DNA of 64,000 bases from Tetradesmus obliquus (lineage: Eukaryota > Chlorophyta > Chlorophyceae > Sphaeropleales > Scenedesmaceae): the NCBI GenBank assembly GCA_030272155.1, contig CP126198.1:4278001-4342000 (forward strand), written 5' to 3'. The notes under the pieces were generated by a model that worked only from the letters and a program-made list of their open reading frames with translations, did no database searches and was not told where the DNA came from. Shown here piece after piece: positions 55-10,500 of this stretch (the first letter of the stretch is position 1; the number at the start of each line of letters is the position of its first letter). Both the position numbers and the translations under genes were made by a program.

Positions 55-3044
55 GGCAAGTACCAGCCGAGGTACCTGGCCAGCAACGCACCCGCAGCAA
101 AGGGCTGCCTGGCCTGCCCCAGGGGCACCACCACCAAGGCCACAGGCGCAGTGTCACAGGCGCAGTGCACAGGTGCGGCTGCTGCCTGCAGGAATGGCTG
201 TTGCTGCCTCAATATGTGTTTTTGAGGTGCTGCATTTTTGTGTTCTGTCAGCCATGTTGTGCAGCTGTTGTGCTAGCCGCAGCCGTCACTGCAGGAGTAA
301 CATTTTGTCCTGTGGTGACCCTTTCATGTATCCGCTGCACTTTGCGATGATACATTCCTAAGCAGTATCATGCGCTGGACAAACAACATGGTTGGCATGC
401 AGTGTGGCAGCCGCCACGCCTCGCCTCTCTTCCTACAACAACGCCAGCCTCAAACCACCCACCTGCTGTGTGCACAAACCTTCTACCCTTGCAGACTTGA
501 AGGCCGGCTTCTTCGTACGGCGGCTGGCCATGGCGCCTCGGGACAGCAGCAGCATCAGCAGCGCACCCGCTGCCGCCGCTGCACTGGCCCCTGGCTTTGA
601 AGTGCAGGAGTGCCCTGAGGGCAGCTACCAGCCGTATGAGGGCGAGGACCCAGTGTACAACTGCACCTCCTGCGGTGTGGGCTTGAAGACGGACGGCACC
701 GGCGCCACCAGCAGCGAGGCCTGCTGTGAGTGGCCTTGGCAGTGACAGCTGAGCGTTGGTGTTTGTTTTGGTGGCCTCACTGTGCCAGTATGCAGATGTG
801 GTTCCAAGCATAAGGTTAATTTGCTTAAGGAAGTTGCATACAATGCATGGTATGCTGTCGAGACGCTGAGCACTCACAACCTGTGCGCTCCAAATGGTTA
901 CCGGGGGTTTGAGTACTAGCGCGAGTACCGCACTGGCAGTGCAGCGAGTACTCAGCCAGTACGCAGCCTGAGCATCAGGCCTGGCCAGCTGGGCCAGCCA
1001 GACTGTGCCACAGGCGGCTATTCCAGCCAGTTTCATACAGGCACTGAGTCCTGATTCATGTGTTACATGTTGGGCAGCCCTGCTGTTGGGTGTCTAACAT
1101 CGCAAATTTGCGCGCCGCTCAAGCCGCAACAGCATGTAGTGGTGGCAGGCCTAGCAACAGCATGCCACCAGCGTAGTAGGTGAAACCCATTTCAGCAGGT
1201 AGACAATGCATGCACTTCTGCTGATACCCTGCAAAATGCAAGTGCAAGGCGGGTCGGGGGGTTCTCCTCAAAGGCGCGCAACAAGGCGAACCCAGCCTCC
1301 GGGCAACATCAACACATACATAATGCTGTAAAGCTGTGCCAATATGTTGTTATGCAAACTTTATCTTTTGTCAGGACAAGGTGGATGCAGGTTCATTGGA
1401 GGCACCTCATGACACTTCTGCATGCACATGTGGTGGAGAAGCGGTCCGCTGCAACGTACAGTACTACGTGCACTTCAACATCCACAGATTGCATGTGCAT
1501 GCCAGCAGCTGCCAAATGGTTTGTAAGCAACAACGTCGTGATGCAACCAGGGCCCTGGGTGTCTTCAGGGGCGCTCTGGCAACTCGACATGCCCACAACC
1601 ATGAAGCTGCTGCATCTGACATTCAGCACGCGAGCGTCGTTACTGCTCAGAACAAAACGCCTACAGCCTTCATGTGCACGACATCACAAGTAAAGGGCAA
1701 CTTCAGAATTGCTCTAGTTCAGAGGGACAGAATACAGTTGTGTCAGACACTGTCAGGTGGAAAAATCACACCGCGGTCGGATCACATCACACATGCAGAG
1801 CTTTGCACACAGCAAGATATGCATGCGCTGCCATTGCAGAATACAGTGATCAAGGCTGTCACGACTGTGTCACAAAACACATCAAGACCACAGCAACCGC
1901 ACAATGCCCAGGCATCAAAATACAGTGATTTGGGCTGTCACAACTGTGTAACAGAACACACCAAGACCACAGCCACCGCACAACGCCCAGGCATCAACCA
2001 CTTGCAGACAACTGGCCACTCAGCAACAACAAGCACTGTAAACACCAACAACTGGAACCAACGCAGTGGCATCAACCACTTGCTGACAGCAATCGTGTGT
2101 GCAACCTGCCATCCACATACGTGTGCTACAACACAAGGCTGGTGACACTGGTCTAAGCAGCACATGAGATTGCATCACGCTGTGCAATTGTTTGAACTGT
2201 CAGCAGGTGGCTGACTAGGACAGCCCAGCACTAGTGACTAGTACTAGCAACACCGTCTATGTATGTCAGACCATGTATGTATGTTGTACGAACGACCTTG
2301 TGCTTGCTGCAGCCATGTCACCACATCTCAGCACTTTCCTGCAAAATGTACACCAGGGATGCCACCCCAATTATACATCACGCCCAAGGTACAAACCCGA
2401 CCAACGGGCAGCGGCCAAGGAGTTGCCACGCTGCCGCCACAAGCCGCTCAGCCGCTCTTGCTGCCCTTCTCCTTGTTCTTCTCCTTTGCCAGCGCCGCCA
2501 GGTGCCGCGAGTACCCCGGCACGGCCAGCTTGAGCTCCTCACGCTCCCCCTCCGCCGCTTCCAGCGCTGCCCTAATGCTGCCAGAGGTCACCTGCAGCTC
2601 CTTGATGCGGTCAAGGATCAGCCGCACCTCGCGCCAGCGCGCCTTGCCATGCGGCTGCTTGCTGCGCCATGTGGTGTCGGGCGGCTGCTTCTCCTCGCAC
2701 TGCTGCACTGACATGCCCCCGCTCACAGGCGCCGTGTACCAGTCCCAGAGGCTCTTCACGCTGGGCTGGTTGCGCAGCACAGGCACAGCCTTGGCGACGC
2801 TGCTGACGCCAGCTGCTGTCGTGCTGTAGGGCGCATGCTCAGCTGATGTTGCTGCTGCTCTCACTCCAGCTGCCAGCGCTGCAGACACAGCCTGAGAGGC
2901 AGCAGCAGCTGCTGCAGCGCTTACTTCTGCCTGCTGTGCCGTGCCCCCTCCAGCGGTGACAGCTGCAGCAGCTGCTGCTGCAGCTGCAGCAGCTGCAGCT
3001 GTAACAGCAGCAGTCTCTGAAGTACCTCTTGCTACCCCTGCAGG

Positions 3045-3099
<55 letters not shown>

Positions 3100-6000
3100 C
3101 CACCAGTGCTGGTGTGCGCCCGCACGGCGCCGGAGCTGCTGGGGCGCAGCAAGCTGGAGAACGCTGCAGACAGCGAGGGCTGAGCTGCTGGGGCTCGCTG
3201 CAGCGTTGGTGCCGCGAACATGCGGCAGCTGCTGCCACTGCCAGCGCAGGCAGCTTGACCTGCCCGTGCTGTCACCAGCTCTGCCTGTGCAGCCTCCAGC
3301 TCCAGCTGCAGTCTGCGCACCCTAGCTGCAGCAGCTGATGGGCGGGCACCACCCGCTGCCGCACTCCGCCCTGCACGTTTGCGCTGTAGCCTGCGCTGCT
3401 GCGTGGTGTGCTGCTCCTCGTACTCCTCATCTGCATCTTCACAGTAATCGTCATCCTCATCCTCCCCGTAATCACCCTCCCCCTCCTCCTCCTCCTCCTC
3501 CTCCTCATCATCATCATCTGATGCTGCTGCTGCTGCTGCTGCTGCCATGCGTGCACTCCTGCTGCGGGTGCGGTGCGGTGTCAGCTGCTGCAGCAGGGAC
3601 AGCAGCTCCTCCTCGCCGACATCTGCTTCTTCATCACTGTCACCTGGGCCAGCCGACGCTCCTGCTGCTGCTGCTGCTGCTGCCGCCGCTGACGCACTGG
3701 CTGCAGCAGCATCTGCAGCGGGTGATGTGACTGGTGCACCGCGGCCTGCTGCTGCAGGCGCTTCTAAGGGCCCAGCTGCCTCTGCTGCATGCAGCAGGGT
3801 CTCAAACACCTGCTGCTGCTCCTCAGCAGCATCGCTGAGGTCACGCGGCACCCTGCGGCTGTCCATCTCATGCAGCACTGCCCTGCGGCCCAGCAGCATG
3901 TCGCGAATCTCCTGCACACCGTGTGCCAGGTCCATCACGCGCTCTCGGGTGCTGCGGGGGCGCAGGTGCTCATAACCACCTGCTGCCAGCTTGTCCTTGA
4001 AGATGGCCAGCAGCCGCCTGCAGCAGCCGGGAGGAGGTGTGCCAGCAGCAACAAAACAGACAACAGGGGCAGCCGTTGTCAACACATGAACGCAAGCAGC
4101 GTGACAGTGCATCATACTGCTGCAGCCATGTCACCCCGTCGTGGAGTACTTGATGACAGGCGGCATCTCAAGCATGACTGCAGCGGCTGCATGCAAACAC
4201 AGCTACACCGCACACAACACACAAACATCACCACTGCGTTCTGCTGCACCCATTTGGGCCCTCACCTGAAGCGCGGCTTCTCCAGCATGAACTTGATGCT
4301 GGGGTTGGCAGCTGCAGCCTCGCGCACCTCCTCGTTCTCGCAGCACAGCAGGCCGCAGCTGTCCTGAGCTCCCACCCTGCCCAGGTAGTCCATCACTATT
4401 GCCAGCGCACCCGCTGAGGGGTTCTCAGCCAGCTGCTTGCGCGTCATCTTGTCCACCTGCAGGCGGCATGTAAAAGAGGACCTTGAGTACAGCGCTGTAA
4501 ACAATGCACCTTGCTGCCACAGCATGCAGAATGCGAACTAGCTACGCAATGGCTGCAACAGAACAGGTGCACAAGGAGCATGCAGCGAGTAAACCCTGCA
4601 CACGAAGGTAGCCACGACCGCTGCCAGCAGGTGGCAGGTGCTCACACCACTGCGATGCGAGCAAGCATACCCACCATCGCCTGCGCCTCCTTCACAGGTA
4701 GCAGCTCGGCCGCCAGCTCTGCCATCTCCTCATCATCGTCGAAGGTCAGGCAGAAGCGCTCAGCGAAGAAGGCGTCCATCTGGTCCTGGGGCCAGCCAGC
4801 AGCAGCCAGCAGCCCCTGGGGCTTGAAGAAGCGCAGGTAGCACAGGTTGAGGGCGGTGCGCAGCCAGCGGCCCATCCTAGCGATCAGCTGCAAGCGGTGC
4901 AGAGCAGCCCAGCAACATTGTGAGATGACGGCAGAAGGGATGGTGGCAGCCGCCGGGACATCTAACTCTGCTTTGCTGCTGCTAGCATGCACAGCAGCAG
5001 CTGCTAAGCAGCGCGTGCGCTTCCTGCGGCATATGCTGCGTGCTGCCGCCCACCAAAGCGGGTTTCTCTCAGCAACTGCCCAGGCTCAGCGAGGCCACTC
5101 ACCCCGTCATCCACACCTTGCTCATCCAGGTCGCGCGCCTTGTACATCCTGAAGGCGTGCGTCACCTTGGTGATGATGATGCCGGCCGCCTCCAGGAAGG
5201 CCTTGAGGCTGTCTGCGTGCTGCGTGTAGCTGATGCTCTCGTGGGGGTTGTTGCCAGTCCACAGCGGGGTGTGGTGCCACTCATCAGGGTCCAGCACGTT
5301 CGGCACTGGGGCCTTCTCCAGCATGAAGCGGGTGATCAGGTGCCGCGCCAGCGCACCATGGGCGCACAGCAGCGGGTCCTTGTGGCGGATGGAGCCGGCA
5401 TAGGCCACCTTGCCACCAAACTGGCGCTTGCCACCCCGCAGCACTGCTGACAGCAGGATGGCAGGGTTGGGGCCTGCTCATCGAAACAAAGACGTAGGCG
5501 GCAGCAAGGCAGCGGCATGTTTGATGAAGGGTACACTACGTCCAGATTTGTGCAGAGCCAACAGTGTGCACAACGTGCTCCCAACACCGGGGCTGTCATT
5601 CTTATCGACATTATCTACAGCAGCACCCAGCATTGCTGCCGCATGCTACACCACTTCAGTTTTTGAATTGTCGAGGGTGATGTCAGCAATGCATTGCTGT
5701 TGTCTGGCACAGTTGCTATGTGCGCTGCTCGCATTTTGTCATAGTACACAATTGCATCGGACTGGATGCGGGAAATCATTGGCTGTTCTATACTTCACAC
5801 CTACCTATCACGCGCAGCACCTCTGGCGGCAGCAAGTCGGGCAGGAACACCAGCCGCGCATCGTCACCCCTGCCGATGGTCATGGTGAGCCACAGCGCCA
5901 TGGACAGGTCGCGCGCAGCTGTGGGCTTGTCGCTGCCCAGCATGGTCAGGCACAGCTTGAATAGCTGGTCGGGCGAAAGAGTGTCATCCACTGTGCCGAT

Positions 6001-7445
6001 CTGCAACATAAGAAAGTGTGGTTGGGTTACAGTTGTCCCCGCAGAGCCAGCATGCAAATAGTCCCCACTCACACAGCCCTATCGGTTGCTTCAACTGCCA
6101 CCAATGTCACCACCACGCAGAGACACATGCAGCAGTGCCAGGGCACTGCAATTGGCAAGCGCTGTGTGTAAGAGTGCTGTAAAACCACTGCTGATAGAGA
6201 ACAGATCTGCTTTCCGTATGATCACAGCACCAGCACATCACGAAGTGCCCTGACTGGAAAGCAGACAGTGTCACACTGTACAGTACAAACACCCAGCACT
6301 TGTCATAGCCACACAGCCTGTTCACCTGCGGGTCGCGGTCTGGCCTGGCACCCTTGTCTGGCAGCGACTTGGCCTCTGCCCCCGATGCAGCTGACGTGTA
6401 GGCTCCACCCATGTCGCCTGCTGAAAGGCCAGCTTTGAGGTGATGCAGCATCCAGTACAGCTTCACCATGCCACGGGCCTGCTTGACCGTGCCCAAACCC
6501 TGTGTGCAGGCAGTGCAGCATACAACCCCACGTTGGCTGTCATGCCTGGCATTGCTCACTATGGCAGCCGCTAGGCTGCAGCTGGGCTGCAGCTGAGTGA
6601 GGGAAGGCATAAGCTGCTTGGTCATTGCTACCGCACATCTGGCACATGCCTGCTACTGCACTGCCATCTGTCCTTGTTGTCACCGCTGCAGTGCTGTTCA
6701 AACGAGCCCAACGCACTGCAGTGGGTGTGTGTACATGTCCTTGTTTTACAGGAACATGTATGTGTATGCAATGGTAATGAAGGTGAGACCAGCAGCAGCC
6801 AGTGGTGTGGCTCAGCAGCTGAATCTCATGCACAAACAGCGCCGTTCTGCCAACACTCACGATCTGTTTCGCCTTGTTTGGGGCCTCCCAGCCAGGGTAG
6901 TTCTCGCCTACCCACATCATGAAGCTGGTGATCTTGGCCTGTCCATCTGGAAGCGACATGTCCGGGTTGTAGGGCGGGTCGCGTGCGCTCCCATCCTGCA
7001 AGTGCTCACAGTGCCACTACAGCAGCAGCAACAGCAGCAGCAAACTAGGCACGTGTAAGATATGCAGGGCCCTCCCCAGCCAAGAACAGCCGAGAAAGCA
7101 ACAGCTGATGGGTGCATCTATGCGCAGGCTTTTTTCTTTTGCCTAGTGGAGTCATGCTGCTGCGCAAGCCCCTACTCCCTTCAAGCTCACCAGGTAGCGC
7201 GCATACTGCGAGTCGTACTTGCGCTCAGTCTCAGGCCGCTTGGATCCCTCCATGTCATGCGCCAGGTTCTCCAGCTGCTCTGAGGTGATCCTGCAAATGT
7301 GTACATGCAGTGCCAGTGCCTTCTTCAGGCAACACCGACGCGCTTACTGCTAACCGCTGCATATCTGGCCTCTGCTGCTGACCTGACTGTCTTTCAGCAC
7401 GCAAGCTGCTGCTGCTGCTGATTGCCAACTGTAGTGCATGAACGG

Positions 7446-7484
<39 letters not shown>

Positions 7485-7529
7485 TGTTCAACAAGTAAAT
7501 TGCTCCCCAGTCGAAGCAGATGCACTGCT

Positions 7530-7575
<46 letters not shown>

Positions 7576-10500
7576 TGCTGCTACTGCTGCGCCCATCCTG
7601 CTGCTCTTCATGTGTGCAGTATGTGTAGTTAACTCAGCCACAACGCATTTGCATGTCTGTCTGTGCACAGCTTTTTGCTGGGAGATAAGGCAAGTGTAAC
7701 CCTACAGCAGCAGCATGCAAGCAGCAGCAGCATGCAAGCACGAGTGCTGCTCACTCTGCATGCGCATAGCCTCCGCCGTCGTCGCTGCTCTGTTGCTTAG
7801 CTTTCAGTTTGCGCTTCTTGGCGGGCACAGTGCGCTTTGGTTTCGATGCGGGTCGGGGTCTCTTGCTGGCCTTCCTGCTGCGCCTTCCCCGCTTCGGGGG
7901 AGGCTCTGGACTGCTAGACTCCGATTCATCATCAACTAGGTCATCTAATTTTTCCGTGTTGAAGCTATCGCTTGGCTTCGCCTTAGATTTGCGTGTGCTC
8001 TTCATGAGTTCAAATCATATTCAACTCCCAAGTGCCTCCGAAATGCAATCGCAGAGCACTGCGAGTGCCTTACATCAATAATAATACCATTAGATGGCGA
8101 GCGTCTTGCAGGATGCGCTGTGCGGTTCGTCAGGACCCAGGTTTTGGGTGGTAACTAGGGCCGTGGCAGTTACCACGGTTTGCGTACCCTCAGTGTGGTA
8201 CGCATGCGTACTGGTAACCCAGTGGGGGGGTACGCAAACCCCCTGGTAACCTTGAGTTACCTAATCAAATCTGTCCCACCTGCCTGCCATCTCTTTGATA
8301 TGCTGCCACAGATATTGATGAGGGCTTTGGCAGCCAGCTTGTGGGCGGCGTGCTGACAGCCTACCCCTGCCCGGCAGACACCTTCAGGCAGCTGGTTGCC
8401 ACCGGCATCATGCCTGTCGACTGTGACCCCTGCCCTGCTGCTACCAACACAAAGGGCAAGACTGGTGCCAGGAGCGAGGATGGCTGTGATGGCCATGCTG
8501 CAGGCTACGGTGAGTGCTGCAGTATACTGGCCGGCAAATTTGAATGTGCTCTGCTGGCATGGTCATCAAGCTGCCGTCTGCTACTGTTTGAGGTTGTCCG
8601 CTGACACTGTCAATGGGTGCATAGTGCATGTTCCGCATGTGGCGTGTGGCAAGCTGGTGATGTGTGCAAGAAGGGCCACAGCTAGTGTTGTTGGATTGCA
8701 CCATGCATGCTGTGCATGGTTCAGCCTCGCCTTCCAGCTTCAGCACGACCATGATCTCAGCGCTGCATCGGCGGCCAAAGACTGTTATGCTGCATGGTCT
8801 GTTCGACAGCGTGTTCTAACAAACAATCGCGCTGCACGCGCGCTGATATGCAGGTGCTGACAATGAAGGCACCATTGTGCAGTGCCCAGTGGGCTCCTTC
8901 AACCCTGCCAACACGGGGAACTGGCTCCCCTGGTGAGCAGCAGCGGACCAGGAGGTGCAGCAGCTACTGATCTGTTGCAGCTGCAACGGCGCAATAGCTG
9001 TGCATGGTCACCTACACCAATAGTGCAGGCATCACGCCATTTGTGTCAGTTGCGATTGCCATTTGTTGCCAGCACCAACAACCAGCAGAGCCTCTGTACA
9101 CATAGGCAAACACACCGAAGCAGCCACCTCATTGCTTGCAGGACACCCAGTCGTCAACTGTGCATCACACTTCTGCTGCTGCTGCTCCTGTCTCCACAGC
9201 ACGTTCTGCAAGTTTGGCCGCTCCACCCTCAGCGACCCAGCCAAGCAGGTTGCAGCCGCCGACTGCCTGCCCAAGCCTGGCCACGGCCTACAGTTCAAGC
9301 AGGGCTCCTTTGACTTTACCTTTGACCAGCTGCAGGCAGAGGCGACAGCAAGGCAGCTCAGCGTGTTAGATCTGCTTGCAGATCTGCCGATGGATGAGTG
9401 CCCTGCAAGCAGCTTCTCTGCTGCACCCTCCTGGGCCGCTGGCCTTGATGCTGCAGCAAAGGCACTCGCGCAGACTTGCCAGCCGTGCGCAAATGGGGCA
9501 GCAACAACGCCAGGCAGCAGCGGTGCAGCGTCTTGCAGCGCCGCAGGTGAGGGTTCAGGGAGGCAGCGTGGCACTAGCCCATGCATGCACTGCATGCACC
9601 ACAATGCTGCATGGTTGGCCTATCGTGCTTAAGCTGCATTACGCTGCACAGCCAGCCACATGTGCCTTTGAAACACACATGCCAACAACTGCATCACCAC
9701 CACCATCCACAGTGCATAGAACCCTATCAGGGTCGGATAATCTGCTATGCGCAGTAGCACAGCACATCTCGCACTACTAATCACAAGCAAAAGTGGCAGC
9801 CTCAGCAGCAGCACCTGGCGCTCCTGCCTGCCCTTCTCCAGCCTGCTAACATGCTGCTGCTGCTGCCTGCATACCGAATCTCACAGACTGCCCTGCTGGC
9901 AGCCAGAAGGACGGCGCTGGCGGCTGCAAGCCATGCAGCATCGGCAGCTTCAAAGATGGCACATTTGGCGCTTGCGAGGCATGCGATCCTCAGGAGTTCA
10001 ACCTGTTTGGTAGCGACCTGGGAGCAGTGCGTGCCACCACGCTGGCGCCTGGCGCCAGCAGCGCAGCGCAGTGCGTGCCAACCGTGTTCAGTGTGGAGCC
10101 TGACATGACAGACAGGATGCTGCACCCGGGCCAAGATGACGACTTTGTGACATATGACAACGTTACGAGTTTGAAGGCATGCGTCAGCAAGTGTACAGCG
10201 GGAGCAATCTGCATTGCCGGGCGCGAAAAGGACACAGGAGACTGCAAGGTGGCGACATATGCAGCGGCTGCCGGCGCCACAGCAGCACAGCTGGGAGCTG
10301 CTCAAGCAACTGTGTATGTTAAGGCTGCAGGGGAGCAAGCAAGCAGCAGCTATGTTGCACTGCTGTCAGCTCACACCTGGGAGAAATCTGCAGCTGCTGA
10401 CATTGCTGACATGCCAGCTTCCGCAGATGACGCAGTTGCAGGGCTGGTACAGTGTAAGGCTGCCTGCAGCGCGTCTAGCGAGTGTGTGGCAGTTGTATAC

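Follow-up and report, generated by a model that had tools for sequence, protein, structure and literature searches.

A recently mobile tyrosine-recombinase element with inverted arms in an intron of Tetradesmus obliquus, probably a Crypton-like DNA transposon

What lies inside an intron of 7586 bp in a gene of the green alga Tetradesmus obliquus, when the next three introns of the same gene measure 344, 267 and 340 bp? The question is raised by a window of 64,000 nucleotides (C8:4278001-4342000 in the present study; contig CP126198.1, assembly GCA_030272155.1), for which a preliminary description, made from the sequence letters, had proposed a complete tyrosine-recombinase transposon nested in this unusually long intron. 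A search of the whole genome (104.66 Mb in 17 contigs, with match counts that are lower bounds) supports this proposal: at least seven complete-length copies with different flanks were found, three of them identical, and the encoded protein combines an NDC10_II domain with six catalytic residues. Herein, we propose that the element is most probably a DNA transposon that is autonomous, has moved recently and relies on a tyrosine recombinase (YR) of its own; it would resemble the Cryptons and move as a circle crossing over at the word GTTACC. The element has moved within the genome, and a 6-bp direct repeat stands at its borders.

The limits of the element were set by its further copies, for which the description had suggested a search. 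When 896-8270 was used as the query, the other full matches started at query base 1 or 2 and ended at 7366 or 7367 (one C5 copy was matched as two pieces), and alignment of these edges gave 897 and 8261 as the shared limits, in place of the 896 and 8270 proposed earlier. The features of the ends are as follows.

897..8261, minus strand (orientation by its gene): the transposon, 7365 bp, with both edges common to other copies.
897..902, plus strand: left GTTACC, the 6-bp direct repeat and the inner six bases of the left arm, in 10/10 two-ended copies.
8256..8261, plus strand: right GTTACC, the 6-bp direct repeat, in 10/10 two-ended copies; one 6-base stretch at paralogous unoccupied sites.
897..916, plus strand: left inverted-repeat arm, GTTACCGGGGGTTTGAGTAC, from the alignment with the right arm.
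8230..8250, minus strand: right inverted-repeat arm, reverse complement GTTACCAGGGGGTTTGCGTAC, from the alignment with the left arm.
8251..8255, plus strand: CTTGA, the 5-bp centre of the predicted circle-junction dyad, found among single copies at right ends only.
8150..8218, plus strand: three extra right subterminal GGTAAC/GTTACC words, at 8150, 8169 and 8213, from a word scan.

The complete-length copies (7348-7442 bp) lie on C8, C3 (three copies), C4, C5 and C12. Three copies, among them the one in the window, agree in all 7365 bp. Relative to the window copy, a fourth shows a single substitution and a 9-bp gap, and the remaining three show 0.4-1.0% substitutions. The presence of identical copies elsewhere in the genome indicates that the movement was recent. 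Two shortened copies also retain both ends, one internally deleted (476 bp, C3:433598-434073) and one diverged (862 bp, C6:5770505-5771366), and a head-to-head dimer of 12326 bp with a deleted centre and GTTACC borders was observed at C12:667674-679999 (L051/L052). GTTACC stands at the start and the end of all ten two-ended copies, outside which the sequences differ; by comparison of these flanks, the element runs from GTTACCGGGGGTTTGAGTAC... to ...GTACGCAAACCCCCTGGTAACCTTGAGTTACC. A search with the ten joined flank pairs revealed no shared flanks between any two of the ten insertions. The preliminary description had pointed to CAAAT at 891-895 and 8266-8270, a word that was considered as the target duplication and rejected. 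It is present at both places but lies outside the element, whose direct repeat is GTTACC: none of the other nine two-ended copies shows the CAAAT pair, and a shared 5-mer is found in 16% of random pairs of 15-mers from the window.

Four one-ended pieces were also detected, on C3, C5, C2 and, at a contig end, C9; right ends on C5, C16 and C1, diverged with 2-3 mismatches, were classed as relatives, not copies. Two left-end pattern matches at three mismatches were left uncounted, the reversed control having given 8 at three or fewer. The 17-bp core GGTAACCTTGAGTTACC has 12 genome occurrences at one mismatch or less (reversed control, 0), all of which are right ends of the family of the window element or of its diverged relatives; the core is unchanged in the diverged C1 relative and carries one change in the C5 relative and two in the C16 relative. 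A left-end copy at C9:5901078-5902500 (L062) stops no more than 22 bases short of the end of its contig. A remnant of about 100 bp (L061, C2:7161173-7161266) has 94 bp of the left end followed almost directly by CTTGAGTTAC, and is perhaps a minimal two-ended derivative with GTTACT replacing GTTACC on the right. Within the left part of the window element, outside the recombinase gene, 1837-1994 consists of two 79-bp tandem units that are 87% alike.

The inverted motif noted earlier at the two ends is real, at 897-916 and 8230-8250 in place of 896-916 and 8229-8251: the arms agree in 19/20 aligned letters, with one inserted base; at the right end they show an 11-bp offset. Their alignment score of 30 exceeds the maximum of 28 in 500 single-letter shuffles by a modest margin, and the recurrence of the arms at the other copies is stronger evidence than this score. 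GGTAAC/GTTACC words occur six times in the 7365-bp element, five of them in the last 112 bp, and the three additional right subterminal words are possible extra recombinase sites.

The whole minus-strand gene reported inside the intron was recovered as a single gene of nine exons, from 8005 to 2448, encoding 1073 amino acids (aa). All eight introns have GT-AG ends in 7/7 complete-length copies, and the frame is open in 6/7.

7755..8005, minus strand: exon 1, from GT-AG ends and colinearity with P0001.
7191..7290, minus strand: exon 2, from the gene model and P0001.
6861..7016, minus strand: exon 3, acceptor corrected via P0001, which has WHCEHLE.
6326..6499, minus strand: exon 4, from the gene model.
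5805..6000, minus strand: exon 5, with catalytic Arg271 (codon 5871-5869).
5103..5473, minus strand: exon 6, with Lys308, His398 and Arg401.
4675..4887, minus strand: exon 7, with Trp424 and Tyr433.
4266..4456, minus strand: exon 8, from the gene model.
2448..4017, minus strand: exon 9, a low-complexity tail with the stop at 2448 and a GCR1_C-like segment at roughly 2776-2574.

The model is consistent with P0001, a 577-aa open reading frame (ORF) of a 2068-base contig with 19 member sequences, which matches residues 1-564 of the window protein with 6 mismatches and no gap and spans all eight intron positions; only the first 14 residues of exon 9 are matched by it. Because the eight introns would break such an ORF in genomic DNA, this contig very probably derives from RNA. 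The gene had also been credited with its own TGTAA signal; on the minus strand, the stretch from the stop codon to the left end of the element has TGTAA only at 1063, some 1.4 kb beyond the stop, and this word is no clear poly(A) signal. A 269-aa plus-strand ORF (1336-2145), considered as a second gene, was rejected, being broken in 6/10 copies or copy halves.

The first gene model (1066 aa) matched NDC10_II in Pfam over the cut-off (E=1.5e-9), and R271, K308, H398, R401, W424 and Y433 are invariant in a four-protein alignment (P0001, P0002, P0003 and P0007). The C-terminus resembles GCR1_C below the cut-off (E=0.0084, 16.8 bits against 23), and the distant relative P0007 has both NDC10_II and GCR1_C over the cut-off. 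Pfam gave no DDE transposase, reverse transcriptase or DUF3435 match in the predicted protein (E up to 1 for DUF3435). Elsewhere in the genome, a single-copy diverged YR gene with about 40% identity (L074, C8:1323922-1325466) may represent either an ancient element or a gene that has been domesticated; as a candidate second family with similar ends it was rejected, since it is present once and the 7.4 kb examined hold a single GTTACC and lack the dyad. Two further weak YR matches lie on C2 and C6 (30%), and another match lies at C8:4526769.

How the element chooses its sites was approached by searching the ten joined flank pairs against the same genome for unoccupied sites. The insertion at C3:433598 (476 bp) has a paralogue, L063, which is identical at 120/131 positions (92%) and carries a single GTTACC exactly in place, the similarity ending five bases past it; the match of a second paralogue, L067, reaches only GT. 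The insertion at C5:6563864 lies within a dispersed repeat, three of whose five relatives reach the joint with GGTACC, GGTACC and GCTACC (80-86% identical), the alignments of the other two ending before it. The insertion at C3:5009794 lies within a satellite array, and each of the ten junction-spanning alignments examined has a six-base stretch at the place of GTTACC (8 GCTATC, 1 GCTGTC and 1 GCCACT; in one case next to an additional base). This array of units of about 180 bp, with one element copy, extends over C3:5009300-5020450 (L004 and L073), with related units at C5:6732500-6733980. For the C12 dimer site, two paralogues at 71% identity read GTTGCA and GTTGTC, and the paralogue of the C6 copy is too gapped to judge. 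The words at unoccupied sites thus agree with GTTACC in 3 to 6 of 6 letters. As a single six-base stretch is found at these paralogous sites, one copy of the repeat corresponds to target bases; either the sites that were hit differed from their paralogues before insertion, or the element brings its own core in.

The proposed mechanism, in which we infer the circle, the use of the dyad and the choice of target from sequence, would proceed as follows. The YR would recombine the two GTTACC repeats, so that the element is excised, one GTTACC is restored and a circle is released. The predicted circle junction, CAAACCCCCTGGTAAC-CTTGA-GTTACCGGGGGTTTG with one GTTACC between the ends, would read CAAACCCCC-T-GGTAAC-CTTGA-GTTACC-GGGGGTTTG, a dyad in which a single T stays unpaired and the arms, of 16 and 15 bp around CTTGA, would be laid out as in lox/FRT-type recombinase sites. 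The circle would then recombine with a genomic GTTACC or a near match. Since the repeated word at the insertions is the inner hexamer of one dyad arm, the target would need just about these inner six bases. Both sides of the C12 dimer are left ends, yet CTTGAGTTACC, otherwise a right-end sequence, stands outside its right-hand arm; this arrangement would result if a circle had been closed left-to-left at CTTGA before integrating at GTTACC. On C1, a diverged short element with right-end-like sequences on both sides (L053, 1548760 to about 1549250) is the mirror of this dimer. In the host gene, the element would have landed in an intron, leaving splicing possible.

Several observations weigh against this interpretation. 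No circle was observed, the unoccupied sites are paralogous and none allelic, and the exact GTTACC was found in just one of them. Homologous recombination via the shared arms could also have given rise to the dimer. The dyad centre measures 5 bp, against the 6-8 bp quoted for YR sites (PMC3212892). Among the ten flank positions looked at, A at -1 (8/14, p=0.004) and G at +1 (6/10, p=0.04) agree with the predicted junction, whereas G at -4 (8/14, p=0.02) and C at +5 (7/10, p=0.008) do not, and the skew gives no clear support for this junction. As for the recombinase, the frame is broken in copy C3c (1/7 complete-length copies), the last 13 residues of P0001 are unmatched in the window protein, and the addition of two further relatives, the partial P0005 and P0006, leaves only K308 and H398 invariant among the six residues. 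Diverged copies lack a strong purifying pattern (nonsynonymous/synonymous changes of 8/6 in C12a and 16/7 in C5a). The PDB searches returned no YR match for either the protein or a four-row profile, and an AlphaFold model of P0001 with six sequences reached a pLDDT of 33 and was not used; the YR fold therefore rests on Pfam and the motifs.

Other explanations for the repeat and for the spread of the copies were considered. The GTTACC repeat might be wholly the element's own, the target being loosely specific and its six bases being replaced during recombination, with a heteroduplex resolved toward the element as for the coupling sequences of Tn916. The satellite, dispersed-repeat and dimer-site words given above, none of which is GTTACC, argue for such a replacement, but the closest paralogue (92%) has the exact word, the dispersed-repeat relatives agree in 5/6 letters, and the other sites are 71-92% alike, so the unit that was hit may itself have had GTTACC. 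On balance, this reading appears unlikely, although it deserves serious consideration. A conventional DDE cut-and-paste transposon with a 6-bp target-site duplication and terminal inverted repeats (TIRs), in which, as has been suggested for Tec elements, the YR would act as a resolvase or be carried as a passenger, would explain why inverted repeats are present and why one copy of the repeat corresponds to target bases. The TIRs of cut-and-paste elements normally abut the target duplication at both ends. In the present element, the right-end arm is offset by 11 bp, the repeat is the same word in 10/10 copies and Pfam found no DDE transposase in the predicted protein; a DDE origin is thus very improbable.

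The copies might also represent a non-mobile YR gene or an integrated virus-like island spread by segmental duplication. YRs are known in integrating viruses too (PMC12220804), and the distant YR on C8 is single-copy. Such an island is hard to reconcile with ends that are exact while the flanks differ, no two of the ten insertions having common flanks, and the only other gene candidate tested, the 269-aa ORF, is broken in most copies or halves; one scan of viral_contigs with P0001 found no relative. Two of the ten insertions lie within repeats (the satellite and the dispersed repeat), and others have distant paralogues. We consider spread by segmental duplication to be scarcely credible, and autonomous movement by the element's own YR is retained as the preferred reading.

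The host gene, represented by its 3' part in the first 10.6 kb of the window, encodes ephrin-receptor-like (GCC2) and PAN domains according to Pfam.

726..8311, plus strand: host intron with the element, 7586 bp, GT-AG ends; P0008 and P0009 span the joint.
495..725, plus strand: host exon 5' of the insertion, an open frame to ...GATSSEAC, phase 1, with an Ephrin_rec_like Pfam match.
8312..8509, plus strand: host exon 3' of the insertion, continuing YIDEGFGSQ..., identical in P0008; YVDEGYGSR in P0009.

P0008, whose source name begins 'Tax=Tetra', is colinear across the 725/8312 joint (99% over the whole query), as is P0009 (67% over 55% of the query), whose name, GHRQ01023038.1, we take to denote a transcript assembly. 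Because both proteins run across the joint, the two sides belong to one gene; the reading phase is kept, as had been stated, and the separate transcripts that would have contradicted the description were not indicated, proteins from other sources joining the halves. The other contradiction named there, which included a lack of further copies, did not arise either, since such copies exist. Removal of the element leaves an intron of normal size, as expected earlier, with a length of 227 bp in place of 211 bp.

The boundaries of Cryptons have been described as hard to define (PMC3212892). In the family described herein the ends are sharp, some copies are identical, one contig resembles a transcript and a recombination site is predicted, so that the circle model for eukaryotic YR transposons can be put to a direct test. 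Genetic work on this biotechnologically used alga could also profit from a eukaryotic recombinase whose target word is short.

Comparison with known systems places the element among several types of YR-bearing DNA. Like the lox/FRT sites of Cre and Flp, the predicted dyad would have two inverted arms and a short asymmetric centre; unlike them, the centre would be of 5 bp, the insertion repeat lies in one arm and not in the centre, and the genomic target would need little beyond the hexamer. Tec elements carry inverted terminal repeats. Like the Tec elements of Euplotes, the present element is a DNA transposon with a YR gene; unlike Tec1/2, which also encode a DDE transposase (PMC3212892), it has none found in its predicted protein. 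With the fungal Starship elements it shares mobilisation of a DNA transposon by a YR. The Starship captain YR belongs to DUF3435, and these elements have direct repeats and, in some cases, TIRs. The present element has no DUF3435 match, measures 7.4 kb and has one gene found and no cargo seen. The algal YR retrotransposons DIRS, PAT, Kangaroo and Toc also bring a YR into Chlorophyta (PMC4157794), but Pfam found no reverse transcriptase domain in the predicted protein here. No such element was recognised among the papers listed in searches that covered Crypton with green algae, Chlamydomonas or chlorophyte, and none is described in the excerpts of PMC4157794, PMC11630846, PMC5963040, PMC12220804 and PMC3537659.

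The likeness to Crypton, and to CryptonF in particular, is the closest: the sole YR-type enzyme, the NDC10-like YR, the 6-bp terminal direct repeats and the circle as the proposed intermediate for both (PMC3212892). The weak GCR1_C-like C-terminus, below the cut-off here, may be a further likeness. Yeast Cbf2/Ndc10 is described as CryptonF-derived (PMC3212892). The element has a catalytic R-H-R-Y YR, a predicted protein free of DDE and reverse transcriptase domains and short (4-6 bp) direct repeats, all traits of Cryptons, and lacks one, the absence of TIRs. YR transposons are stated to lack TIRs and target duplications (PMC3627910), and Cryptons are described without TIRs, unlike the present element, whose 20-bp inverted arms would pair up as a dyad once the ends are joined. 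In YR sites known from the literature, 6-8 bp separate two inverted repeats of 11-13 bp (PMC3212892). The host is also different, Table 1 of the 2011 survey by Kojima and Jurka holding no green-lineage species (PMC3212892). Because of its inverted arms, the element is set apart from known Cryptons. Tentatively, it might represent a distinct green-algal group of YR transposons, with a lox-like dyad at the joined ends, a half-arm target word and dimers as left-to-left circle products, a suggestion about which we remain somewhat doubtful; if true, an alga used in biotechnology would harbour a site-specific recombinase system that is active at present and nearly portable. The element would thus work like a Crypton and is closest to Crypton among the systems compared, but differs by its inverted arms.

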